Positions 1-21,098 of a DNA stretch of 27,465 bases are shown here, one piece after another (position 1 is the stretch's first letter; each line of letters begins with the position of its first letter). Where the stretch lies: IMG/VR virus record IMGVR_UViG_3300045911_000171, positions 1-27,465 of that record. The stretch is one strand, 5' to 3'. The translations under genes were made by a program, and so were the position numbers. The stretch comes from a virus. A model generated the notes under the pieces. The model saw nothing but the letters and a program-made list of their open reading frames with translations. It did no database searches and was not told where the DNA came from.

Positions 1-29
1 AAGAAAGAATCCAAAATATAGGTACTGTA

Positions 30-72
30 AAATATTACATAAAATATATGAAAAAGAAATATTACAAAATAT
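30..72. repeat. AT-rich direct repeat downstream of the glycosyltransferase
   Basis: AAATATTACA followed by an AAAATAT or AAATAT tail occurs at 30-47 and again at 57-72; the second copy lacks two bases. The stretch 1-147 is otherwise AT-rich, holds no gene I can support and shows no clear hairpin. It could be a 3' untranslated region of the leftward glycosyltransferase gene or a weak iteron-like element. In so AT-rich a sequence, two short copies are weak evidence. Confidence 0.35.
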
Positions 73-147
73 CAATCATCTAATTACAGATTATCCCAAG
101 AGATCAATGGACTGACATAGAATTGTGTGCGGTTAGAGGGATCGCCC

Positions 148-1727: not shown

Positions 1728-1827
1728 TGCACAGCTGTTGCATGAAGGGAAACAACAAGGCTTAACGCAAGCCGAGTTCATCGAGATTGATAAGCGAATC
1801 CCTAAAAAGAAACGCAAAAAGAAGTGA
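1696..1827 (+). CDS. 43-aa protein with a lysine-rich tail
   Basis: A short reading frame starting at an ATG inside the 3' end of the preceding gene and running 43 codons. The N-terminal half is polar and proline-containing (MNYPNQPPISDAQLL); the middle (GLTQAEFIEIDKRIP) looks helical; the end is KKKRKKK. The strongly basic tail suggests nucleic-acid contact. Its position directly before the tRNA-like hairpin element and the annealase gene fits a small early protein. It is short enough that coding status is uncertain. Confidence 0.45.
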   Translation: MNYPNQPPISDAQLLHEGKQQGLTQAEFIEIDKRIPKKKRKKK

Positions 1828-1838
1828 TTTTTTCATAC

Positions 1839-1886
1839 AAGACGCGTCGTAACGGGCGGTTTCGGGTTCGACTCCCGACGCGCTTT
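1839..1886 (+). other. tRNA 3'-half-like hairpin element
   Basis: Positions 1862-1878 form a perfect tRNA T-arm: stem TCGGG/CCCGA around the loop TTCGACT, which matches T-loop consensus TTCRANY. Upstream, TCGTAA at 1847-1852 could be an anticodon loop (CGT), followed by CGGGC and a four-base variable region. However, the 5' anticodon stem does not pair and no D-arm or matching 5' acceptor exists in normal register. The same bases also form a competing helix, AAG(A)CGCGTCG at 1839-1849 with CGACGCGCTT at 1876-1885, ten pairs with one bulged A. It fills most of the 73-nt gap before the annealase gene. Options are a tRNA-derived attachment core, a decayed tRNA, or an mRNA leader structure. Confidence 0.5.
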
Positions 1887-1900
1887 CAAACAACTTTAAT

Positions 1901-3943: not shown

Positions 3944-4311
3944 TGATAAAAATCGAGAAAGTATTTATATCCCTAATCGTATTGACTGGGTTAGGGATAT
4001 TTATTTGTCTGTTAATTTCGACTTATCAAGTTGATAAGGAACGCGAAAGGCAAACAAATGCTAAATTGATTCGGGAATATTCGATGTGCGCAGAAAGGTT
4101 GTACTTTGCGGAAAGGAAAGTTGAGGCTATCCGGTACGCACTATGCACCTTTACCCGGAATGAATATCAATACGAGCCTAAAATAGTTGCTAATATGATG
4201 CAACTTGATGGGTTGACTGCCTTTTATTATACCTATGCCCCTGATTTAACTTGCCCCTGTGATTCATTAATTCGTTTTCATATCCGAACCGCTTATAATA
4301 CTCCCGAATAA
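3943..4311 (+). CDS. Small single-pass membrane protein
   Basis: A 122-residue protein with one strong N-terminal membrane helix (VFISLIVLTGLGIFICLLI, about residues 7-25), preceded by MIKIEK. A charged helix (DKERERQTNAKLIREY) follows, then a Cys-containing C-terminal domain ending near TCPCDSLIRF. The positive N-terminus and acidic/basic follow-on suggest either a signal anchor with the C-terminus outside or the opposite orientation; this is not decided by sequence alone. It lies between Gp157-like and primase genes, overlapping each by one base, so it is co-expressed early. Superinfection exclusion or membrane anchoring of replication are possible but unsupported. Confidence 0.6.
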   Translation: MIKIEKVFISLIVLTGLGIFICLLISTYQVDKERERQTNAKLIREYSMCAERLYFAERKVEAIRYALCTFTRNEYQYEPKIVANMMQLDGLTAFYYTYAPDLTCPCDSLIRFHIRTAYNTPE

Positions 4312-6965
4312 TGTACCGCTATTCGCTTGATGCAACCCCTAAAAAACATATCTGCCCGGCTTGCAAAAAGAAAACATTTGTACGTTACAAAGATAGTGCA
4401 ACCAATTCCGACTTGCCGGCGCAATATGGTAGATGTGATCGGGAGTTAGAATGTAGATACCACCTTAATCCTTATCAAGACGGGTACGCGAAAGGTGAAG
4501 CAAGCGAATATACGCCCCAAATAATCGAATCTAAACCGCCTTCTCTGCACACGATGCAAATCGTTGACAAAAGCGTTAAAAGCCGTGAAAATAATTTCGC
4601 GGTTTTTTTAACTATGCTTTTGAATGATGATGCGAAAGATCATTTGTTAAAATGGAAGGTCGGTACGTCGAATAAAAAGTGGCAGGGGGCTACGATTTTT
4701 TGGTACATTACACAAGACGGGGATGTTCGGGCTGGGAAGGTGATGTTATATGACCCCAATACAGGTAAGCGTGTTAAGGCTACACCGACACCGATTTCGT
4801 GGGCGCATGTTTTGTTGGGATTAAAAGATTTTAACCTATCTCAATGCCTTTTCGGCGAGCATTTATTAACCGATAAGCCCATTTGCATCGTTGAATCCGA
4901 AAAGACTGCCATCATTGCTTCGTATTATTTACCCGAATTTGATTGGCTTGCCACCGGTGGTCTGTCGAATTTGAATGAACGTAATACGAAAGTGCTTTCC
5001 GATAAACAAGTATGGCTAATCCCTGACTGCGGAGGCGAGGAAAAGTGGACTGAAAAGGCGAAATACATTGAAATCAAAAACGGGGTAAAGTTTAATATAT
5101 CAAAATGCCTTTCGGGATTGGAGCAAGGGATAGATTTAGCCGATGTTCTGATCGAATCCGACAGAGATAAATATATCAAATTACTAAGGAATGAAATAAC
5201 GACCTATGTCTCCGAAGTCCCTGCCACGATTGCGACCGAAAAGTCAAAAGAGTATCAACGAATCGAGGAAATAATATCGTTCTTTCATGCAAACAACCTT
5301 AGTGCATCGTTTGAGGATTCCGAAAAACGCATGTTAGCTTATTCTCTTTGCCAAGCTTTTGCGCGAAATGATGCGATCGAACTATTTATCAAATCCCTTT
5401 CACTTGATAAACAGGTCATTGAGACTAATCCAAAAGTTTTATATGACCAATTTATTGAGCAGCTCCCGAAAGGCAAGTCGTATTCTTTAGGTATATTGGT
5501 TAATATATTTAAGAAGAAAGGTTACGTTCCGAAAGAATTTAATCCCCAGCGATTTTGGGAAATCAGCCCGGAGGGGGGGGTCAAGTTCTACGAAGAAAAC
5601 TTTATCCCTTTTTTGCGTGGTCTCGGCTTTTACCAATGGACATTTGACGAAAAGTTTTATCAATTTGTGCGGGTGGATGCACATTTAGTACGTATCGTCA
5701 ATGAGAAGTACATTGTTGCAACGGCAAATACCGAGATCGAAAGCAGTTCCGCGCGGGTTAAGAACCGATTTGATGTTGTTTGTAGGGAATACACATCAAA
5801 AACGAAGTTACAACAGCTCCCGGTCAAGGATTTTGCTTTCAAAAAATGTACCCGTGATACCGCATTTCTGCCTTTTATGAACGGATGTATCGAGATGTCC
5901 CGCAATAGTGCGCCAGAATTGAAATCCTATGGTAAAGAATACATTTGGAAGGAACAACAAATAAATTTTAATCTTGACCTAACGAGCGAAGACGAGGCGA
6001 TTGATTCAATATTCGCTCAATTTTGTTTCAAAGCGATGGCACAAGAGCCGTCTAGACTTTCCGATTTGATGCGGACGATTGGTTACATGCTTCACAATTA
6101 CAAAGACGAGGTTTTAACGCGGGCGATAATCTTTACGGATGAACGCCTATCGCAATCGCGGGACGAGGCGCATGGCAGGACGGGCAAAGGATTAGTTATG
6201 AAAGCAGTTTCAAAGATGTTACCAATGGTTTCACATGAAAAAGCGAAGGTAATAGATAATTTCATGTGGGAGAATATCACCCCCGGCGTAACGCAAATAT
6301 ATTTATTTGAGGAAGTGGATAAGGACTTTGATTTTAGCGACCTATTTGGGTTGATCACGGGCAACCTTACTTACAATGTTAAAAACGTAAGTAAAGTTAC
6401 TGTTCCGTTTGAGCGTACGCCAAAGTTCGTATTAACAACTAACTTCGCAATGAAGGGGATCGGCGCATCGCATGAAGCCCGGCAAAAAATCATCGAATTT
6501 TCAGACTATTTCAACGGTACGACCCGTACCCCTGCGTCCGAATTTGGATGTCATTTCTTTTCCGATCAATGGGATACCAACGAATGGAATAGATTTTATT
6601 CGTTTATGGTTTATTGCCTGTCGGCTTATCTGCAAGAAGGATTAACAGAAACGAATGTGTTTAATTCACTTCGTAAGAAATTGATTATCGAAACTACTTT
6701 TAATTTCGCGGAGTTTGCTCGCACTGCCATCCCGATCGGGGAGTGGTTTAGCGCGAAACAACTAACCGATAAGTTCAATATCGAATACCAAGACTACCTT
6801 TCTACGAACCTGCATAGTAAAACGATGATCCGGTATATCAAAACAAAGCTATGTGGTATTTATGAATATAAATTTGAGGAGGAACGGAGGCAAGAAATGG
6901 GATCACGGGAAACTTATTTCCGCTTGACACAAAAAAACCCGGCAAAAGATCACCGGGTTAATTGA
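4311..6965 (+). CDS. Zinc-finger/Toprim/SF3 primase-helicase
   Basis: An 884-residue replication protein. The N-terminus carries a zinc site (Cys15, Cys18, Cys42, Cys48). Residues about 185-240 look like a Toprim domain: 'PICIVESEKTAIIAS' supplies the Glu strand, followed by LATGGLSNL and WLIPDCGG. The C-terminal half is an SF3-type helicase of the DUF5906/phage-primase kind: Walker A GRTGKGL with Lys626, Walker B IYLFEEVDKD near 663-672, then TPKFVLTTNFAM as motif C with its Asn, and a KIIEFSDYF arginine-finger region. The order zinc finger, Toprim, helicase fits a T7 gp4-like primase-helicase role with a different motor. It is the last rightward gene, ending 10 nt from the convergent leftward gene. 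An 8-G run at 5573-5580 stays in frame. Confidence 0.85.
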   Translation: MYRYSLDATPKKHICPACKKKTFVRYKDSATNSDLPAQYGRCDRELECRYHLNPYQDGYAKGEASEYTPQIIESKPPSLHTMQIVDKSVKSRENNFAVFLTMLLNDDAKDHLLKWKVGTSNKKWQGATIFWYITQDGDVRAGKVMLYDPNTGKRVKATPTPISWAHVLLGLKDFNLSQCLFGEHLLTDKPICIVESEKTAIIASYYLPEFDWLATGGLSNLNERNTKVLSDKQVWLIPDCGGEEKWTEKAKYIEIKNGVKFNISKCLSGLEQGIDLADVLIESDRDKYIKLLRNEITTYVSEVPATIATEKSKEYQRIEEIISFFHANNLSASFEDSEKRMLAYSLCQAFARNDAIELFIKSLSLDKQVIETNPKVLYDQFIEQLPKGKSYSLGILVNIFKKKGYVPKEFNPQRFWEISPEGGVKFYEENFIPFLRGLGFYQWTFDEKFYQFVRVDAHLVRIVNEKYIVATANTEIESSSARVKNRFDVVCREYTSKTKLQQLPVKDFAFKKCTRDTAFLPFMNGCIEMSRNSAPELKSYGKEYIWKEQQINFNLDLTSEDEAIDSIFAQFCFKAMAQEPSRLSDLMRTIGYMLHNYKDEVLTRAIIFTDERLSQSRDEAHGRTGKGLVMKAVSKMLPMVSHEKAKVIDNFMWENITPGVTQIYLFEEVDKDFDFSDLFGLITGNLTYNVKNVSKVTVPFERTPKFVLTTNFAMKGIGASHEARQKIIEFSDYFNGTTRTPASEFGCHFFSDQWDTNEWNRFYSFMVYCLSAYLQEGLTETNVFNSLRKKLIIETTFNFAEFARTAIPIGEWFSAKQLTDKFNIEYQDYLSTNLHSKTMIRYIKTKLCGIYEYKFEEERRQEMGSRETYFRLTQKNPAKDHRVN
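6931..6959 (-). terminator. Intrinsic terminator for the leftward transcripts
   Basis: On the minus strand, the 7-bp stem AACCCGG/CCGGGTT with a 10-nt loop is followed by a T run (7 Ts including the stem end), a standard Rho-independent terminator. It lies just past the stop of the last leftward gene (6976) and within the 3' coding end of the rightward primase gene. On the plus strand the hairpin is not followed by Ts, so it acts in one direction only. Confidence 0.75.
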
Positions 6966-6975
6966 AGGTCTTTGA

Positions 6976-7230
6976 TTATAACGAACCTTTCCTTTCTACA
7001 AAAAACAAATCCCTGCCGGACGCTTGATACAGCAGTGCGTTCCGTTTTTCGAGACTCCAAAAAGTCTCTTTAACAGACTGATCATATATATAATTCCAAC
7101 TATAAAGATCGTTGGAATATACGCCAATTTGTGGGTCGTCAAATATGATGACATATTCAACGCCGCTGCTTGGATCAAGAATCATCCCCCGCAACTCGTG
7201 CGGGGGGTGAGCGAAGTTTATTTGGTGCAT
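6976..7230 (-). CDS. Uncharacterised 84-aa accessory protein
   Basis: I do not recognise the family. The frame is open to 7329, but the ATG at 7230 gives a normal N-terminus (MHQINFAHPPHELRGMI), sits 19 nt after the preceding stop and follows an A-rich leader typical of Bacteroidota. The protein is acidic to aromatic (VIIFDDPQIGVYSNDLYSW) with the basic end FFVERKGSL, and has no membrane segment. It is the last gene of the leftward set before the terminator. The gene carries several perfect inverted repeats (7051-7068, 7093-7118, 7142-7157, 7186-7206), so synonymous codon choice may be shaped by RNA or DNA folding. Confidence 0.6.
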   Translation of the reverse strand: MHQINFAHPPHELRGMILDPSSGVEYVIIFDDPQIGVYSNDLYSWNYIYDQSVKETFWSLEKRNALLYQASGRDLFFVERKGSL

Positions 7231-7522
7231 AGTTTGTTTGCTTTGAATTCTATCTATTTGCCCATTCCTCGTCCCTTCGCCGGCGATACTCCCGCCAGGC
7301 GTCTTGATAGGTACCGTAAAAAACCGCATCGTACGAGTAGTCGTCTCTCATCTGAGAGACTGGTCTCAGCCACGTCGTTCCGTACGTGGTACTTACGTAC
7401 CACGTTTCTTTTTCCATAGCCGAGGCGATCGCCTCGGCTTCTATTTGCGTTGCGCAAATAGAATGCGCATCGCAGGGAAAAGTAGGCTCTTGGGAGATTG
7501 TTATCTCACCAAGATCTGCGAT
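7051..7522. repeat. Dense array of perfect inverted repeats
   Basis: Inverted repeats by arm positions: 7051-7056/7063-7068 (6 bp), 7093-7100/7111-7118 (8), 7142-7147/7152-7157 (6), 7186-7193/7199-7206 (8), 7343-7349/7354-7360 (7), 7384-7392/7397-7405 (9), a 22-bp perfect palindrome at 7418-7439, 7439-7449/7453-7463 (11), and 7488-7498/7503-7514 (11 pairs, one bulge) enclosed by 7469-7475/7516-7522 (7). Loops are mostly 2-10 nt. They run through the coding parts of two small genes. By simple expectation fewer than one stem of 8 bp or longer with such loops should occur in 480 bp; at least five are present. Confidence 0.8.
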
Positions 7523-7558
7523 TACGTAGAATTTGGGGGTGTTGTTTTGCGTTGTCAT
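7250..7558 (-). CDS. Uncharacterised accessory protein, MTTQNNTPK leader
   Basis: A 102-residue protein starting at the ATG at 7558. The first nine residues, MTTQNNTPK, are identical to those of the otherwise unrelated protein at 8212-8787, because the two genes share a duplicated promoter/leader cassette. The body (FYVIADLGEITISQEP ... AEAIASAMEKETWYVSTTYG) reads like a small beta-alpha domain, and the end is very charged (WREYRRRRDEEWANR). The 'ATQIEAEAIASAMEKETW' stretch resembles small phage proteins with a helix of alternating Ala/Glu. No function can be assigned. Many hairpins lie inside the gene. It is first in the promoter-distal accessory unit, 19 nt before the 84-aa gene. Confidence 0.65.
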   Translation of the reverse strand: MTTQNNTPKFYVIADLGEITISQEPTFPCDAHSICATQIEAEAIASAMEKETWYVSTTYGTTWLRPVSQMRDDYSYDAVFYGTYQDAWREYRRRRDEEWANR

Positions 7559-7649
7559 TGTTGCTGTTTGTTTGAGTGAAAGATTATGATACAAAGATAA
7601 CGGGTTGGCGGATACTGTGCAATAGTTAGACGGTTATAAAATGTTAAAA
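7536..7649 (-). repeat. Promoter-leader cassette, copy A
   Basis: A 114-bp segment aligned without gaps to 8765-8878, about 93% identical by direct comparison (8 mismatches). It covers the upstream region, promoter, 5' leader and first codons (MTTQNNTPK). Seven of the eight differences fall in the spacer between the -33 and -7 boxes; the boxes and leader are unchanged. Its upstream end reaches the stop codon of the XRE-like gene (7644-7646). Confidence 0.92.
7592..7622 (-). promoter_or_regulatory. Bacteroidota promoter, copy A
   Basis: On the minus strand, TTG (7620-7622) is followed by a 20-nt spacer and TATCTTTG (7592-7599), an exact TAnnTTTG -7 box. The leader from the predicted start to the ATG at 7558 is roughly 27 nt, A/C-rich, without a Shine-Dalgarno sequence. 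It would drive the two genes at 7250-7558 and 6976-7230. Confidence 0.85.
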
Positions 7650-7865
7650 TATAGTGGACGGGTTTACGGATAAGATTTCGCAGTAGGTTTTTAGTCTTTC
7701 CAACGAAACAGACGTTCGCCCGTCGATATAATTATTAATCGTATGTGGGCTTATCCCTACGGCCTCACAAAATCCCTTCCGGTCAAACGTTCCGTCATCA
7801 TTACGAAAACCCGCCTCGATCATGAGGCGGGTTATAATGAGTTGGGTGTTGGGGTATTTAGGCAT
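7644..7865 (-). CDS. Small XRE-like HTH regulator
   Basis: A 73-residue protein with a helix-turn-helix of the Cro/CI (XRE) type. RKGFCEAVGISPHTINNYIDGR (about residues 29-50, with 'AVGIS-HTI-NYI-GR' as the core) forms helices 2 and 3, followed by SLERLKTYCEILSVNP as helix 4. This length is usual for phage Cro-like proteins. It is the third gene of the promoter-proximal accessory unit, and its start overlaps the stop of the previous gene by 8 nt (ATGCCTAA). Its stop codon lies inside promoter cassette copy A, so it could readily feed back on either cassette promoter; that is inference. A terminator-like hairpin lies early in its coding sequence. Confidence 0.75.
   Translation of the reverse strand: MPKYPNTQLIITRLMIEAGFRNDDGTFDRKGFCEAVGISPHTINNYIDGRTSVSLERLKTYCEILSVNPSTIF
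7808..7833 (-). terminator. Terminator-like hairpin inside the XRE-like gene
   Basis: AACCCGCCTC/GAGGCGGGTT is a perfect 10-bp, GC-rich stem with a 6-nt loop. On the minus strand it ends in GGGTTTTC, a short T run. It sits 32-57 nt inside the XRE-like coding region, downstream of two genes and upstream of most of the regulator. It could attenuate regulator expression; the T run is short, so strong termination is doubtful. Confidence 0.45.
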
Positions 7866-8211: not shown

Positions 8212-8787
8212 TTAATGAGAAATAGAGTTAGTTGTGTATTCAGTACCATTTGGTCTTCTGTATCCAGTACGGCGCGCATATGAATCACTGCCTTTGTGAT
8301 AGTAGGATTCTGTCCACATGATTTCATCACCATTAGGAAGGAATTTGCCCGTGCCTTGTTTTACTTTCGCAACACGTACACGACCTTCCATAACTTCTAA
8401 AGTTTCTGCGGGGATCATAATTACACCGCGTTGTTTATTGATAATAGCAGTAATTTTATGTTCGGATGCAGGTTCGTGAGGCATGGAAGAAGAATCACGG
8501 CAAGGAATAACGCCAATTTTTTCTCCTTTAGAGTTGAATATTTCAGCATACTCGCCTACTCCAATTTTACCTGTTATTGTCAAGTCGCCTAATGTACGAG
8601 TTTTAATAGTAACAGAATAAGTGGTCGGTGCTACTACTGCCATTGCGCCGATGCCGGTTTTCGCTTCAGCCCAAGCCTTTTTCAAGGCTTCGGAGATGGT
8701 TAACGCTAAGGTGCGAACGTAGTTCCAAGCGTTTTTCATAATCGCGCTCAGGTCAAATTTTTTCGGGGTGTTGTTTTGTGTTGTCAT
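8212..8787 (-). CDS. Accessory protein with SEALKKAWAEAK helix
   Basis: A 191-residue protein starting MTTQNNTPKKFDLSAIMKNA. The N-terminal block 'IMKNAWNYVRTLALTISEALKKAWAEAK' (about residues 15-42) is a motif I know from the N-termini of assorted phage and plasmid accessory proteins, where it is joined to varied C-terminal domains; its job is unclear. The rest is beta-rich (TTYSVTIKTRTLGDLTITGKIGVGEYAEIFNSKGEKIGVIP), with conserved-looking glycines. It is first behind promoter cassette copy B and so the lead gene of the promoter-proximal accessory unit. A role against host functions is a guess from company and position. Confidence 0.65.
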   Translation of the reverse strand: MTTQNNTPKKFDLSAIMKNAWNYVRTLALTISEALKKAWAEAKTGIGAMAVVAPTTYSVTIKTRTLGDLTITGKIGVGEYAEIFNSKGEKIGVIPCRDSSSMPHEPASEHKITAIINKQRGVIMIPAETLEVMEGRVRVAKVKQGTGKFLPNGDEIMWTESYYHKGSDSYARRTGYRRPNGTEYTTNSISH

Positions 8788-8878
8788 TGTTGCTGTTTGT
8801 TTGAGTGAAAGATTATGATACAAAGATAGCAGGTTGGTTTGGACTGTGCAATAGTTAGACGGTTATAAAATGTTAAAA
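8765..8878 (-). repeat. Promoter-leader cassette, copy B
   Basis: This is the partner of 7536-7649, at an offset of 1229 nt and in the same orientation. It runs from the promoter upstream region through the leader to the ninth codon of the gene at 8212-8787. Beyond the ninth codon the two genes diverge completely. Copy B lies directly after the stop of the last virion gene (8900). Confidence 0.92.
8821..8851 (-). promoter_or_regulatory. Bacteroidota promoter, copy B
   Basis: On the minus strand, TTG (8849-8851), a 20-nt spacer and TATCTTTG (8821-8828) form a perfect -33/-7 pair, identical in boxes and spacing to copy A. It would start the unit 8212-8787, 7858-8184, 7644-7865, and could continue into the promoter-distal genes. 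Confidence 0.85.
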
Positions 8879-13995: not shown

Positions 13996-16617
13996 TTAAT
14001 ACCTTTTAATGAGTGTGATTTTTACTTTTTGGGGGCGAATAGGGTTGAAAGCGGTAATGGATTTCAGATAAAAGATGTTTCCATCGTACCGAATCGGACG
14101 ATTGATTTGCATCTCGTTATAATCAACAGCATTCATAAGGACTTCGCAAGTTGCCTCAAAGCCACGTGTCAAATCCGTCATTAGATATTGATAGTAATTC
14201 CGATATAGCCCGCTATCACTATTCCATGACAGATTAATATTCTGCACATTATTGGTATCCGCAAAAGATAATTCTGCGAATCGTGTCAATGTTGCGTATT
14301 GGTCAACGACCGTGCCGGTCAGCCCCTCGAAAACTTTGACTAAAAGCGGTATGCCAAGCCTCGGATTTTGGTCATCGAAATAGGAAACGTTTTTGATTTG
14401 TAATAAGCGCGGTTGAAAGTCGTAGTTGGTGGAAACGGATTTATTTAAGGGCGCGCTTAAATCATCCTTCGTTGCAAGGCGCGGGATTCGAACGGTGGTT
14501 GCGGACTGGTATTGCGGATTGGTAAAATCGCTCACGTCTTTAGCGACCGCCAACCCAAAATTATCAAATTCGGTTGATGCAAAGATACCACTACCTACCT
14601 CCGAAACGTCGGTATTATTGGAGATATTGGTATCAAATAGGTAATCGTAATTTGCCCCTATGCGTGAAGCGTAGTCATCCTTAGAATCTTTTTTCCATAT
14701 GAAATTGTATTGCTTATTTAAGTCGGGTGGGCTTGATACGAACGTACTTCGATTTGTTTTTTGTGTAATATCGTACGCTGTTTGGGTTGGGAGAAAGAAA
14801 GTATCAGCAGGATCGAGATAGGCAATACGGTTTTTCTCATCAACGCTTAAATATAGGTTAAATAAAGATTGAAAGGATTGGAGAAATTCGATTTGCTGTA
14901 TGTCGGGAAGGTTTTGAGCGAACTTTAAGTTAGCCCCAAATCGGTCGCGTTCCGGTGTGGATGGCAGGTTATCTATGTTTACTTGAATGCGAAAGCGACG
15001 GATTGATAAAACTGTATCTATTGCGATATGTTCGACATAAGCAGGGTTGCTTAGATAAATCGTGGAGAATATGAAATAAGGATCGGCGTAAGGCACGACC
15101 GGATCACCCGGAATAATCCCAAAATTCCCGCTATCATGCTCAAAATCACTGATGAATGTTAGTAGTGAAATCCAAAACACAACCGATTCACCGCGCTTTA
15201 ATTCTGCTGTAAATGTCCCCGAAATCACATCACCGATATTCGCATCTATTACCTCTTGTAGGTAGATATTATCCTCAAAAACGTTAGCCTCTGTGAAGGT
15301 ACGACCGCCGTCAAGGTTGTTAGGTATGTCCCCTTGAAACTTTGTCGCCCCGAACTTGCGCCGAGTAGCGAAACGTCGCCCCGAATTTCCTGCCCCGTGA
15401 GGCGAGTTGCGCTCAATTAGGAATGAATATTGAAACGTGTAGACACCATCCACCGGCGCCGTGTAGGTACTCCACTTGAAATTATTTTCATTATCCAAAT
15501 CCTTATTTGTGGATACGAGAAAGGCGTTATCTAACTGCGCATATTCAAAGTGTAACACATTATAAAGTATGCTATATTGTTGTGCGAAAACCGAAACCGG
15601 TGGAGCGTTGGTAGGGTATAGTACATCCGACAACTTGTATTGCCTGTCGTAATAAAGGGCTGACCATCCATAAGCGAATCTCAAATTTCCCTGATCCCCA
15701 TCCCAAACGATGCCAACCGATTGCGCGGTGTCCGATTGATTATTATTTGACGCACTGATTACCGTCCCTAACGACTGCCAATTATAAATGAACTCACGTT
15801 CCGCCGAATAGGGCATTATCAATTTCTTTACCCGTCTCGAATTGATCCAATTTCCTTGTAATTGATACCCTGCATTTGCAAATATCTGTTTAAGGATTGG
15901 TACGACAAAGAAAGATGGTGGTATATCCCGGAATCCTAAGTGAGGTGCGGAACGGTAGTCTAAATAATACGTCTTATTACCGAATATTTCGCGCCCTTCC
16001 GGCAGGTTGATCGTCGTGTTGGTTTGCGGGGCGAAAGGAACGTATGGCGTGGATGGTAAATAGGTCGTTAAATTAGACGATGACCATACGTTAGGCATGA
16101 AAAACTTACCCCGACAGATCAAAGGGAAGCAGAAAATAGTATCAGTATCAAAGTCGTTAGGGTTTTGGAAGTAGTTATACAGCAATTCCATATATGAAAT
16201 AATGGAATCACATCCATTAAAGCCCAATTCCCCAAAGCCCGTCAAGTCCCTTAGCGATTTCCCCTTCAAAGCCACCGCAATACTGCCCACTTTTGCCACC
16301 ATAAACCCCTCGATCGTAGTGTCAGAAACCGATTTGATCTTAAACACACCCCGAAAAACCTCAATATCACCGACGGTTACGACACATTTACGATCGTTTT
16401 GGGATTGAAACTTATACGATTGTTCTAAGATTTGCAGGCTACCGAAAACCAAACGGTTACGGGTGGAATTGGGGAGCTTTAAGGTATAGCTCACCTCCCC
16501 CTTTCGACTGGCAGGGTCTTTATAATCCGCCAATTCGCGCCGGAATCGGAGCGGGAAGTCGTCGTTATCTTGATAATCAATTTCCTGATCGTCAATTAAT
16601 ATGACTAAGTTTCCCAT
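13996..16617 (-). CDS. Tail tip / baseplate hub protein
   Basis: An 873-residue structural protein. The N-terminal motif 'FPLRFRRELADYKDPASRKG' followed by SYTLKLPNSTRNRLVFG (residues about 21-59) is the standard start of Bacteroidota phage tail hub proteins ('F-I-D--d-s-r-gs-s-ti-iPgT--N--iFg'). The rest is beta-rich with many aromatic residues. A C-terminal domain at about 580-870 includes 'FLQSFQSLFNLYLSVDE', the helix also common in this family. The start overlaps the previous stop by one base (TAATG). It probably binds the tape measure and the distal tail protein at the tail tip. Confidence 0.6.
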   Translation of the reverse strand: MGNLVILIDDQEIDYQDNDDFPLRFRRELADYKDPASRKGEVSYTLKLPNSTRNRLVFGSLQILEQSYKFQSQNDRKCVVTVGDIEVFRGVFKIKSVSDTTIEGFMVAKVGSIAVALKGKSLRDLTGFGELGFNGCDSIISYMELLYNYFQNPNDFDTDTIFCFPLICRGKFFMPNVWSSSNLTTYLPSTPYVPFAPQTNTTINLPEGREIFGNKTYYLDYRSAPHLGFRDIPPSFFVVPILKQIFANAGYQLQGNWINSRRVKKLIMPYSAEREFIYNWQSLGTVISASNNNQSDTAQSVGIVWDGDQGNLRFAYGWSALYYDRQYKLSDVLYPTNAPPVSVFAQQYSILYNVLHFEYAQLDNAFLVSTNKDLDNENNFKWSTYTAPVDGVYTFQYSFLIERNSPHGAGNSGRRFATRRKFGATKFQGDIPNNLDGGRTFTEANVFEDNIYLQEVIDANIGDVISGTFTAELKRGESVVFWISLLTFISDFEHDSGNFGIIPGDPVVPYADPYFIFSTIYLSNPAYVEHIAIDTVLSIRRFRIQVNIDNLPSTPERDRFGANLKFAQNLPDIQQIEFLQSFQSLFNLYLSVDEKNRIAYLDPADTFFLPTQTAYDITQKTNRSTFVSSPPDLNKQYNFIWKKDSKDDYASRIGANYDYLFDTNISNNTDVSEVGSGIFASTEFDNFGLAVAKDVSDFTNPQYQSATTVRIPRLATKDDLSAPLNKSVSTNYDFQPRLLQIKNVSYFDDQNPRLGIPLLVKVFEGLTGTVVDQYATLTRFAELSFADTNNVQNINLSWNSDSGLYRNYYQYLMTDLTRGFEATCEVLMNAVDYNEMQINRPIRYDGNIFYLKSITAFNPIRPQKVKITLIKRY

Positions 16618-18392
16618 TATGAAGGTAGGTTAGCGCGGTTAACAGTTAAAGCTACTTCAATACCTAATGCGTATGAATCATCTAAAGACGATCGCTCCCA
16701 TTTGAATCCTCTTACTGCCACCCGGCGCGGTTGCCACCCGTCAATCGTCCGGGTTTCGCGTTCCATAGTGGGATCAATCAAATAGATTTCAGTAGATTGC
16801 ATCATATCCCGCAACCAATCCGCATGGTCTTTGTCTAACCACCCCGTATTTATGGAATAACTTACCGTCGTTTGTGTGGCATATGTGGATTCGGTCGTAA
16901 CCTTTTCGTAATCAGGGTACGGTAATCCGTTATGCTTATTAACCGTCTCGTGTTTCAGCGTGCGATTGTAGTTATCACGGTCAACGTCTATGCTTTTGAC
17001 AATAGCCCCGCGCGGGGTTAACGAATCGTACCCACCCAGCGGATTCAAAAATAATAAAGTAGGTACATTATCCGCACAGTTATCTTCGTTAACTAAAACG
17101 TAAGTTTGTTCAACCGTTAAATCGATAGCCGGCGCGCTGATATTGAAAGACGATAGCACATAAAATGTGATCGAATAAGATGCAACCTTTGACGTTGATT
17201 CATAACTCGTAAGATCAAACATTCGCGGTGATACTTCAATACTAATGATCCCGTTTTGGATGTCGAAAGTTGAAAAAGCGGTGATCAGAAAGAATGATTC
17301 AACCTCTGTGCAATCTTCGAGCGTGAAGGTTACGCGCATTCCAAGCAAGTCGTATAGATTCAGATTTGCCGGACGGTCAAATACGAAGTAAAGGAACTCC
17401 AATGCATCTCGTCGAATCAATTTCCGAAGCGGTTGATGCGACAGTGGGTACACCAATCCCTGTCCATCTAACCGCCGACCTCTCCATCGAAAGTAAAAGG
17501 ATCGGTATGTATCGTCATCTGTGTATTCTAAACGTTCGGATGAACGTACAGCCCAAAAGGTTTTCTTCACTTCGTCCGTATCGTAATTAAAACCCCGAAT
17601 TTCGCGCGGGAATTGATACGAAATGCCATCCTCTACCCACCGCTCGGAGACGATGTAGGCAAAACGGGCGATCATCGGCAGGGCATAGTTCACGCCAAAA
17701 TCGCCAAACCCGGCAGTGTCTTTGACAAGCGGAACTTGGCTTTTCAAATAAGGAAAAAGACTTTCCGCAAGGTCAAATTCAAATAGGTTAACACCTGAAT
17801 ATCGCTTCTCAAGTGGCTTGGTATTGGCAAAATTGGCGGAAGTATAGGGCGGTGCGGATGGACTTATAAAAAGTCGCTGTGTTGCTGGAGTATTATCAAC
17901 GTAAAGATCAACAACAACACCGTAATCCTGCTTAGTTTGTGCGAATACGCCATCTTGCGCGCCCGTGTACGATGTTGCGAAAGCCGTTCCCGACTGGTTA
18001 ACGATAAAATCAAATTGTGTTCCTTCATATTTTGCGGTCAAATAAAGTGCGTCCCCTGATGGGGTTACAATAATACGATCTTTTAGATAAGGATGATACG
18101 CAATCGCTACCCAAAGTGCGGAAATAATATTGGCGACCGGGCTTGGGAATATCGGCAAGCCGTTATTCGGGTTGGCAGAAAAGGTAAATATGATATTATC
18201 AATCGTAATCGTATATCCTTCCACTACTTGGGTATGATTAAGCATAGTAATACTACCCCGCGCCGGCGTGGATATACCTACGGTTTCGCTTTCGTATATC
18301 AACCGTAACGGCGATCCGCACGGGAATACAGCATTGCTGTCTATCGAATGCTGTATCCGATCTTCTGGTGATAGTATTCTGTTTAATCCCAT
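16617..18392 (-). CDS. Distal tail / tail tip structural protein
   Basis: A 591-residue beta-rich protein. The segment 'LLFLNPLGGYDSLTPRGAIV' (about residues 439-458), with a following R-D-YNRTL, is a motif I know from distal-tail-type proteins of Bacteroidota phages. An N-terminal module (about residues 45-145: HTQVVEGYTITIDNIIFTF, then paired helices with IISALWVAIAYHPYL, then a 'YLTAKYEGTQFDF' strand) resembles a small domain also seen in the 501-aa structural protein at 23458-24963. The C-terminal WLDKDHADWLRDMM helix with an EIYLID strand is typical of tail-fitting domains. One nt separates it from the upstream gene. Confidence 0.55.
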   Translation of the reverse strand: MGLNRILSPEDRIQHSIDSNAVFPCGSPLRLIYESETVGISTPARGSITMLNHTQVVEGYTITIDNIIFTFSANPNNGLPIFPSPVANIISALWVAIAYHPYLKDRIIVTPSGDALYLTAKYEGTQFDFIVNQSGTAFATSYTGAQDGVFAQTKQDYGVVVDLYVDNTPATQRLFISPSAPPYTSANFANTKPLEKRYSGVNLFEFDLAESLFPYLKSQVPLVKDTAGFGDFGVNYALPMIARFAYIVSERWVEDGISYQFPREIRGFNYDTDEVKKTFWAVRSSERLEYTDDDTYRSFYFRWRGRRLDGQGLVYPLSHQPLRKLIRRDALEFLYFVFDRPANLNLYDLLGMRVTFTLEDCTEVESFFLITAFSTFDIQNGIISIEVSPRMFDLTSYESTSKVASYSITFYVLSSFNISAPAIDLTVEQTYVLVNEDNCADNVPTLLFLNPLGGYDSLTPRGAIVKSIDVDRDNYNRTLKHETVNKHNGLPYPDYEKVTTESTYATQTTVSYSINTGWLDKDHADWLRDMMQSTEIYLIDPTMERETRTIDGWQPRRVAVRGFKWERSSLDDSYALGIEVALTVNRANLPS

Positions 18393-19744: not shown

Positions 19745-21098
19745 TTGATTGTGTATTAAAGGTTGTATTTGGTGTAAATAAAGAGCCTTGCTGTAAAGCC
19801 TTTTGCTCGTTTATGTATTGAACTGTATTAGCTAATTTATCATCAATGAGTGGGAAGCCGTTACGCTCGCGCACCTCGTTGATGCTTAGATAATTCAACC
19901 CGCTGTTTAATTCCAAGCCCGCCGAAAGCGGTGGCTTATACCCTAAATCGAAATCAGTTGAAAGCCCATTGAGTTTTGCCAATTCCCGCAGATTATCAAT
20001 GATCTTATTTTGATAATTACGGATACATAGTTTGTAAAACAATTCAGCAGACACATTGATTTCGTTTGCATTTCCTCCAAGCCCCCCGTTGCCCGGTAAC
20101 CCGGCAAGGGTCGGGGATGGTAATTGATGCGCCGAAACGATTTGCTGTTGTGTTGCTGTTAAAGTACCTGCGTACATTTCAGCATTATTGTTGATTGAAA
20201 GCGGGGTGATTTCCGGTAAAACACCATCACCATTGCCGTCAATACCGCCGAATGTAAATATCAACTGACCTGAATTTTTAGTACCTGTAAATTGGTCTAA
20301 AAAGTCTTTAATACGTTCTTCTTTTTTCTCGGCAGTCGGTTCGTCAGGAAAGGCAATAATCGCAGAAGGCATAAAGGCATTGTTAATTTGCGCGCCCGTT
20401 AGTTCAGCCAACCGAATATCGTTTCGTATCCATTCGATCCCACCCATGTAATCGGGTTCGGGGTACAATTCGTTAGAAGCATTATAAAAGAACTCGTATT
20501 TAATTGAGAACTTTGTATTATTCGCAATCGTTGACGCACCCCGCCAAACATCATAATAACGTGGTTGCTGGTGTGGTTTAAGAAAACCGGTGCGGAAGTA
20601 TATCCATGCGGGACAAACTTTCAAACCATTGTACTGCCCCGTCTCTTTATCCGGTATTGCCCACCGTACATTTGAAAAAGGTACTGGGTCAACCGCTACG
20701 ATTGCTGTATTGTATGCACCTAAAATGATCTTCCAACTTAGCCCGCCGAATACCACTATATCATGTGCCGATTGTTCTATTAATTTATTTACATTTATAA
20801 GATCAAACCATTTTTTTAGCTTTACACCTTCCGCGCTTTCTTTATCATAAACCAACCCGTCCGCGATGGTCATATTGATTTTAGTCTTTAAGATAGCGTT
20901 GTGAATGGCTGACCTTTTAAGTTCTAAGATGCGATCAGTATAGAGATTATCATCGTCGTATTTAACAATGCCGTACCATTCGTAAGCGGAAAAGGGCGCA
21001 TATTGATTGGCATTCGAGGGACGCTGTGCATCCATGCGAATTTGTCGCGGGTTGCCCCCGCTCATTTTGACTACATTAATTGAAACGTCCTTTGCCAT
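19710..21098 (-). CDS. Portal protein
   Basis: A 462-residue protein of the Bacteroidota-phage portal type. Hallmarks include SAYEWYGIVKYDDDNLYTDR and the crown/stem region 'YPEPDYMGGIEWIRNDIRLA' (about residues 216-235), followed by FMPSAIIAF, a 'LIFTFGGIDGNGDGVLPEIT' stretch, and the downstream 'TATQQQIVSAHQLPSPTLAG' region (about 310-329) leading to the long C-terminal wing helix. The start at 21098 (MAKDVSINVVKMSGG) is the first in-frame ATG after the fibre gene. The portal forms the dodecameric ring for DNA entry. Its position after the tail fibre and before the tail chaperone, instead of next to the capsid gene, is unusual. No terminase is visible in the window. Confidence 0.8.
   Translation of the reverse strand: MAKDVSINVVKMSGGNPRQIRMDAQRPSNANQYAPFSAYEWYGIVKYDDDNLYTDRILELKRSAIHNAILKTKINMTIADGLVYDKESAEGVKLKKWFDLINVNKLIEQSAHDIVVFGGLSWKIILGAYNTAIVAVDPVPFSNVRWAIPDKETGQYNGLKVCPAWIYFRTGFLKPHQQPRYYDVWRGASTIANNTKFSIKYEFFYNASNELYPEPDYMGGIEWIRNDIRLAELTGAQINNAFMPSAIIAFPDEPTAEKKEERIKDFLDQFTGTKNSGQLIFTFGGIDGNGDGVLPEITPLSINNNAEMYAGTLTATQQQIVSAHQLPSPTLAGLPGNGGLGGNANEINVSAELFYKLCIRNYQNKIIDNLRELAKLNGLSTDFDLGYKPPLSAGLELNSGLNYLSINEVRERNGFPLIDDKLANTVQYINEQKALQQGSLFTPNTTFNTQSNENNNLRGEKV

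Follow-up and report, generated by a model that had tools for sequence, protein, structure and literature searches.

Quasi-palindrome frameshifts of phage T4 are known from the older literature. In genes of Saccharomyces cerevisiae, template switching between the arms of inverted repeats homogenises the arms and inverts the spacer in coding DNA (PMC8604942), and quasi-palindrome mutations have also been described in highly transcribed yeast DNA (PMC3820800). Perfect palindromes were found in the coding sequence of mitochondrial genes of Nematomorpha, where template switching was proposed (PMC6649704), and the origin of RNA hairpins was attributed to template switches which invert the loop and create a perfect stem (PMC8794818). 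Template switching at inverted repeats is known, then, from reporter assays and from scattered evolutionary events; here we describe about ten quasi-palindromes within 0.5 kb.

The locus lies in an IMG/VR virus record, a contig of 27,465 bases (the window in what follows is this whole stretch of DNA), and only two other copies were found, in the IMG/VR phages G001 (48,796 bases) and G002 (43,489 bases). It resembles the S. cerevisiae genes (PMC8604942) in the homogenisation of arms, in the inversion of a spacer within coding sequence and in the clustered nonsynonymous changes; however, in yeast these are scattered single events in a large genome, whereas a phage operon of about 0.5 kb has here accumulated several homogenisations and one or two inversions. 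As in Nematomorpha (PMC6649704), perfect inverted repeats stand in conserved protein-coding genes and are gained and lost between species, but the nematomorph palindromes are up to 284 bp long and spread through the mitochondrial genes, while the present ones have arms of 8-11 bp, about ten of them in tandem in one mobile cassette. Loop inversion and a perfect stem arising in one event are shared with the RNA hairpins of PMC8794818, which belong to rRNA and microRNA genes selected for RNA structure, in contrast to the protein-coding sequence without strand preference described here. No phage counterpart was found in the open-licence papers. The template-switch mechanism is already known, and it is the dense array in a mobile phage operon which appears to be new.

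The original prediction had placed ten inverted repeats with tight loops in two small genes, at least five of them with stems of 8 bp or longer, together with a perfect 22-bp palindrome, and all of these were located where they had been described (Table 1). Tight loops with arms of 8-11 bp are found in H9, H7 (7186-7206), H5, H4 and H2a, to which the palindrome H3 is added; H10, H8, H2b and H1 are weaker. The array is wider than first described (upstream to 7513 and downstream to 7013), and it continues, as had been supposed, through H11 toward the terminator stem. In the coding pair (6976-7558, 583 nt) the perfect stems with 8 bp or more number six, against a mean of 0.34 (maximum 2) in codon-preserving shuffles and 0.11 (maximum 1) in dinucleotide shuffles, in line with the early estimate that chance would give well below one. 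The comparison of folding energies which had been suggested as a check was also carried out: the minimum free energy of the leftward mRNA was -210.3 kcal/mol versus -161.9 +/- 6.9 in 300 codon-preserving shuffles (z = -7.0). Since the mean energy is -153 kcal/mol for dinucleotide shuffles, -162 for codon shuffles and -210 for the real sequence, the amino-acid sequence gives a little of the structure, and the codon choice and arrangement give most of it. It is right on average, as had been claimed, that the protein sequence does not by itself account for the repeats; nevertheless some hairpins are perfected by a change in the protein. All three codon phases are represented among the hairpins, including (1-2, 3-3), which has the least synonymous freedom.

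The density is not genome-wide, as a palindrome scan of the contig revealed at most two stems of at least 8 bp per 480-nt segment elsewhere. In a set of about 208 kb, consisting of this contig, parts of three relatives and three other, distant phages, the array was the densest cluster; six stems per 480-nt segment were reached solely by the arrays of the window and G002, and the best segment outside the homologous arrays had four (Polaribacter phage Leef_1). Among 232 ORF tiles of 252 nt from three phages the arrays of G001 and G002 were the two most negative in codon-shuffle energy; at the window copy the ORF rule picked an antisense frame, so this copy was measured separately. It is clear that the array is real and strongly non-random.

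Table 1. Features of the hairpin-bearing gene pair and its surroundings (positions in the window).
Feature	Position	Strand	Description
H1	7489..7513	-	CTTGG.GAGAT-AACA-ATCTCCCAAG; mismatch absent from G002 stem
H2b, outer quasi-palindrome	7446..7474	-	TGCGATGCGCA-TTCTATT-TGCGCAACGCA; 7-nt spacer inverted relative to G001 (AATAGAA)
H2a, perfect 11-bp stem	7439..7463	-	TTCTATTTGCG-CAA-CGCAAATAGAA; window only
H3, perfect 22-bp palindrome	7418..7439		AGCCGAGGCGATCGCCTCGGCT; one mismatch pair in G002, none in G001
H4	7384..7405	-	ACGTGGTAC-GTAA-GTACCACGT
H5	7343..7360	-	GTCTCTC-AGAT-GAGAGAC
H7, C-run/G-run hairpin	7182..7210	-	TCACCCCCCGCA-CGAGT-TGCGGGGGATGA
H8	7137..7162	-	CGTTGAATATG-TCAT-CATATTTGACG; 11 pairs, two of them G.U on the mRNA strand; no change among the three phages
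H9	7093..7118	-	ATTCCAAC-10 nt-GTTGGAAT
H10	7051..7068	-	GAGACT-TTTTGG-AGTCTC; invariant
H11	7013..7035	-	CTGCTGTA-TCAAGCG-TCCGGCAG; perfect in G002 through Ser to Tyr
Terminator of the pair	6936..6959	-	Rho-independent-like; sequence unlike the G001 and G002 terminators
Gene 1 (P0002 from its ATG)	7250..7558	-	102 aa; carries H1-H5; alpha/beta prediction; conserved in three phages
Gene 2	6976..7230	-	84 aa, start ATG 7230; carries H7-H11; 92% identical in G001
Leader	7532..7649	-	TTG-20 nt-TATCTTTG (at 7599-7592) and unstructured 5' UTR; 92% copy at 8761-8878
Cro/C1-type HTH gene adjoining the pair	7644..7865	-	Pfam HTH_26, 1.5e-7; own hairpin with 10-bp stem at 7808-7833

The hairpins sit in a real two-gene leftward operon, which is composed of a promoter-leader, gene 1, gene 2 and a terminator. 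By its consensus, the TTG-20 nt-TATCTTTG arrangement in the leader is presumably a promoter of the Bacteroidota type. The array had been set at the convergence of early and late transcription; this is true of the genes on either side, but the pair itself has a promoter-like leader of its own. Gene 2 most likely starts at 7230 rather than at 7329, because the ATG soon after the stop of gene 1 removes an overlap of 80 bases. An antisense ORF (7024-7419, + strand, 131 aa) was rejected, as the antisense ORFs listed for the relatives differ in extent and none of them spans the region.

Only a weak similarity to PHROG 22783 (E 0.002) could be detected at the N-terminus of gene 1, the AlphaFold model of which (pLDDT 68) gave no fold match at E <= 0.001, and the structure prediction of gene 2 was poor (pLDDT 38). 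Relatives of the two proteins were not found in annotated phages, plasmids and 84,980 genomes, nor was there a convincing match to anti-phage defence models. Next to the pair a replication protein is encoded (4311-6965, + strand) with DUF6371 and Zn_ribbon_16, matching VirE/primase-like proteins of Bacteroides, Polaribacter and gut phages, and the window also codes for a RecT-like annealing protein and a PD-(D/E)XK nuclease.

The DNA identity of the cassette to the window is 92% in G001 (loci L004, L006 and L009) and 88% in G002 (loci L005, L007 and L010), while the remaining alignments between the window and its relatives are few, mostly at 65-74%, or there is no alignment at all; short stretches align better, namely the leader copy (97%), window 1-134 (99%) and 1816-1887 (82-89%). 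The neighbour of the cassette is the replication gene in the window, a divergent 1411-aa tail-like gene in G001 and methyltransferase genes in G002, the tail-like and methyltransferase names being taken from reading the translations, with no family search behind them. Because its identity is 88-92% in such differing settings, while the rest aligns at 65-74% or not at all, the gene pair is best seen as an accessory cassette which would spread between Bacteroidota phages. The cassette was not seen in the examined part of a fourth phage (L016), which has the same leader and regulator gene. In length gene 1 varies among the copies by a few codons near the start. In the window, G001 and L016 the leader (promoter and ATAATCTTTCACTCAAACAAACAGCAACAATGAC) is followed by several genes which differ from one another, and recombination at shared leaders is a plausible route by which cassettes might be exchanged.

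Comparison of the copies revealed how the hairpins differ. The H2 unit reads TGCGCA-TTCTATT-TGCGCA in the window, TGCGCA-AATAGAA-TGCGCA in G001 and TGCGCA-AATCGAA-TGCGCA in G002, and at 7451-7469 the window is the exact reverse complement of G001 over 19 nt (7 differences), which recodes Gln-Ile-Glu to His-Ser-Ile. The H2a stem of the window, absent from the relatives, results from this spacer inversion together with the CGCAAATAGAA that follows. Since the flip is one of 7 nt between 6-bp arms, homologous recombination of long repeats cannot yield the 19-nt inversion, and an assembly artefact is unlikely to be its source, because a k-mer assembler would span 19 nt directly. The loop of H5 (AGAT in the window and in G002, GTCT in G001) was probably inverted too, the match of 10 nt with 3 differences corresponding to an inversion plus one substitution. 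When the same mutation clusters were placed randomly, a mean of 0.03 qualifying inversion matches was obtained against the two observed, and none of 400 trials reached the observed set. An arm swap in H7, also flagged by the inversion scan, was dropped, two independent transitions from a C-G pair being simpler.

Whether H2b, H5 and H11 are perfect depends on the phage, and several of them owe this to nonsynonymous changes. H2b and H11 are perfect in G002, where the other copies have Thr in place of Ser and Ser in place of Tyr, respectively. In H4 the second pair varies among all three phages (C-G in the window, a G.G mismatch in G001, G-C in G002), and the change in the window is nonsynonymous (Arg to Thr). 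Judged by the aligned copies, mismatched arms are perfected separately in different phages, and arm homogenisation would have acted on H4 in the window and on H2b, H4 and H11 in G002, the direction being deduced from three sequences. In G002 a single additional G in the stem of H7 (L010 392-421) shifts the frame of gene 2 after about 14 codons; the gene may have lost its activity in this phage, or there may be an error at the end of the contig.

On these observations we consider it probable, at about two chances in three, that replication template switching at quasi-palindromes is what built, perfected and shuffled the hairpins of this mobile phage operon. That palindromes might be perfected by template switching was among the original suggestions, and it is directly backed by the exact 19-nt inversion, the probable second loop inversion and the perfecting of arms in separate lineages. 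The imperfect inverted repeats with short spacers which mark the hotspots of quasi-palindrome template switching are present. The nascent or lagging strand would fold on an imperfect inverted repeat, and the polymerase would either copy one arm from the other, whereby the arms become homogenised, or switch strand across the hairpin, leaving the spacer inverted. We infer that the array is kept because the encoded proteins can bear the changes, and perhaps because the stems are to some extent selected. Template switching alone does not explain the confinement of the hairpins to the cassette, of which strong transcription from the leader is a possible cause (PMC3820800), and neutral arm conversion would not give a lower change in stems than in loops and other positions. 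Furthermore this reading draws on three copies only, most directions are deduced, and the H5 inversion needs an extra substitution.

A challenge to template switching comes from the conservation of the stems. Differences between copies amount to 2.4-4.2% in stems, 9-20% in loops and 8-11% at other positions (codon positions pooled), the stems changing 2-4 times less than their neighbours (Fisher p 0.002, 0.011 and 0.067, the three not being independent). Since the stems change more slowly, some selection on structure, in mRNA or DNA, is possible, and the stems themselves may have a role. The mRNA might be selected for its structure, as a transcript stabiliser, a translation tuner or a decoy of a host RNA-binding defence, with template switching as the mutational supply only; we regard this as a rather doubtful account. 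It would fit with the slow stems, with the array as the most negative ORF tile in both G001 and G002, with the GNRA-type GUAA loop of H4, with the two G.U pairs of H8, which exist on the mRNA strand only, with the retention of the regulator hairpin in L016b despite two C-to-U changes (pairing as U.G), and with the highly conserved 5' UTR of the leader. If the structure were selected as mRNA only, however, sense pairing would be expected to beat antisense pairing, because G.U survives only in the RNA sense. The energy z was -7.0/-6.2 (sense/antisense) in the window, -5.7/-6.0 in G001 and -6.2/-6.4 in G002, thus the sense-minus-antisense difference (z of -0.95, +0.54 and +0.97, the last for gene 1 only) showed no strand preference. 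Likewise the sense-strand G.U changes (H7 and H9 in G001) are balanced by A.C changes (H3 in G002, H7 in the window), and the equal strands together with this balance indicate a DNA-level process. The conservation of stems speaks for the proposed structured RNA, but neither strand folds better than the other when each is set against its shuffles. H2a, one of the two longest stems, is missing from the relatives; moreover, a covariance-model scan of the window against Rfam gave no match. It is less likely still that the array is under selection as a mobile structure, an almost continuously folded mRNA or ssDNA which serves the phage, for instance by decoying a host nucleic-acid sensor or by shielding against it, and in which template switching keeps the stems perfect while loops and protein vary.

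A fixed element at the DNA level (replication origin, priming site, packaging site or protein-binding palindromes) would agree with the strand symmetry of perfect palindromes, one of 22 bp, and with the adjoining VirE/DUF6371-type replication protein. It has become very improbable: the cassette is placed differently in the three phages, beside replication, tail-like or methyltransferase genes, and is unseen in the examined part of the fourth, the hairpin sequences differ and are not repeats of a single binding site, and the GC skew does not turn sharply at the array but reaches its cumulative maximum near 9 kb. In-frame mobile palindromic elements, similar to the Rickettsia palindromic elements or the mitochondrial double-hairpin elements, would likewise lie within coding sequence with the frame preserved. 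But one palindrome at several sites, as is characteristic of REP, RPE or double-hairpin elements, was not found in the contig, where the array matches only its own palindrome and the duplicated leader; every hairpin differs in sequence and no copy shows a clean deletion of any hairpin, so such elements are disfavoured as extremely improbable.

Under template switching, the preferred reading, the locus documents the natural process within a short stretch of DNA and shows how it changes proteins in jumps. Gene 1 has a dN/dS of 0.14-0.21 against the more distant copy, relative to which the proteins are under purifying selection, and of about 0.7 between the two close copies; window and G001 differ by 12 nonsynonymous and 4 synonymous codon changes in gene 1, several of which come from hairpin events. 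It is a warning that clustered amino-acid changes in fast-evolving accessory genes of phages can stem from mutation rather than from adaptation. Should selection on the hairpin stems be proved, the operon would represent a new kind of mobile structured phage mRNA.

Some further observations were made in the surroundings. One leader, with promoter and a near-invariant 5' UTR through the ATG, fronts different small genes in four phages (window 7532-7649 and 8761-8878; L009 18403 and 18949; L010 15; L016 1574 and 2730), and it looks like a common arm of exchangeable gene cassettes. At the other leader of G001 a 91-aa gene has a perfect 11-bp stem, CAAGCGCGCGA-ACCG-TCGCGCGCTTG (L009 18536-18561). 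The left end of the window (1-134) is 99% identical to L010 695-828, just past the G002 cassette, in otherwise distant phages. Upstream of the RecT-like gene (1901-2698), a largely intergenic stretch is conserved at 82-89% (window 1816-1887, G001 20680-20749, G002 14213-14281), while the genes around it do not align in G001 and G002; it is possibly a shared regulatory site.

The Cro-like gene has a hairpin of 9-10 bp near its start (Thr-Arg-Leu...Glu-Ala-Gly; window 7808-7833, L009 18715-18740, L016 2507-2536), which is retained in G001 and largely retained in the L016 homologues, one of them a 52% identical protein; in the L016b homologue the two changed positions still pair. In a late gene with unassigned function (16617-18392, - strand) two adjacent 252-nt tiles with codon-shuffle z of -4.4 and -4.8 are among the most structured coding stretches of this contig outside the array.
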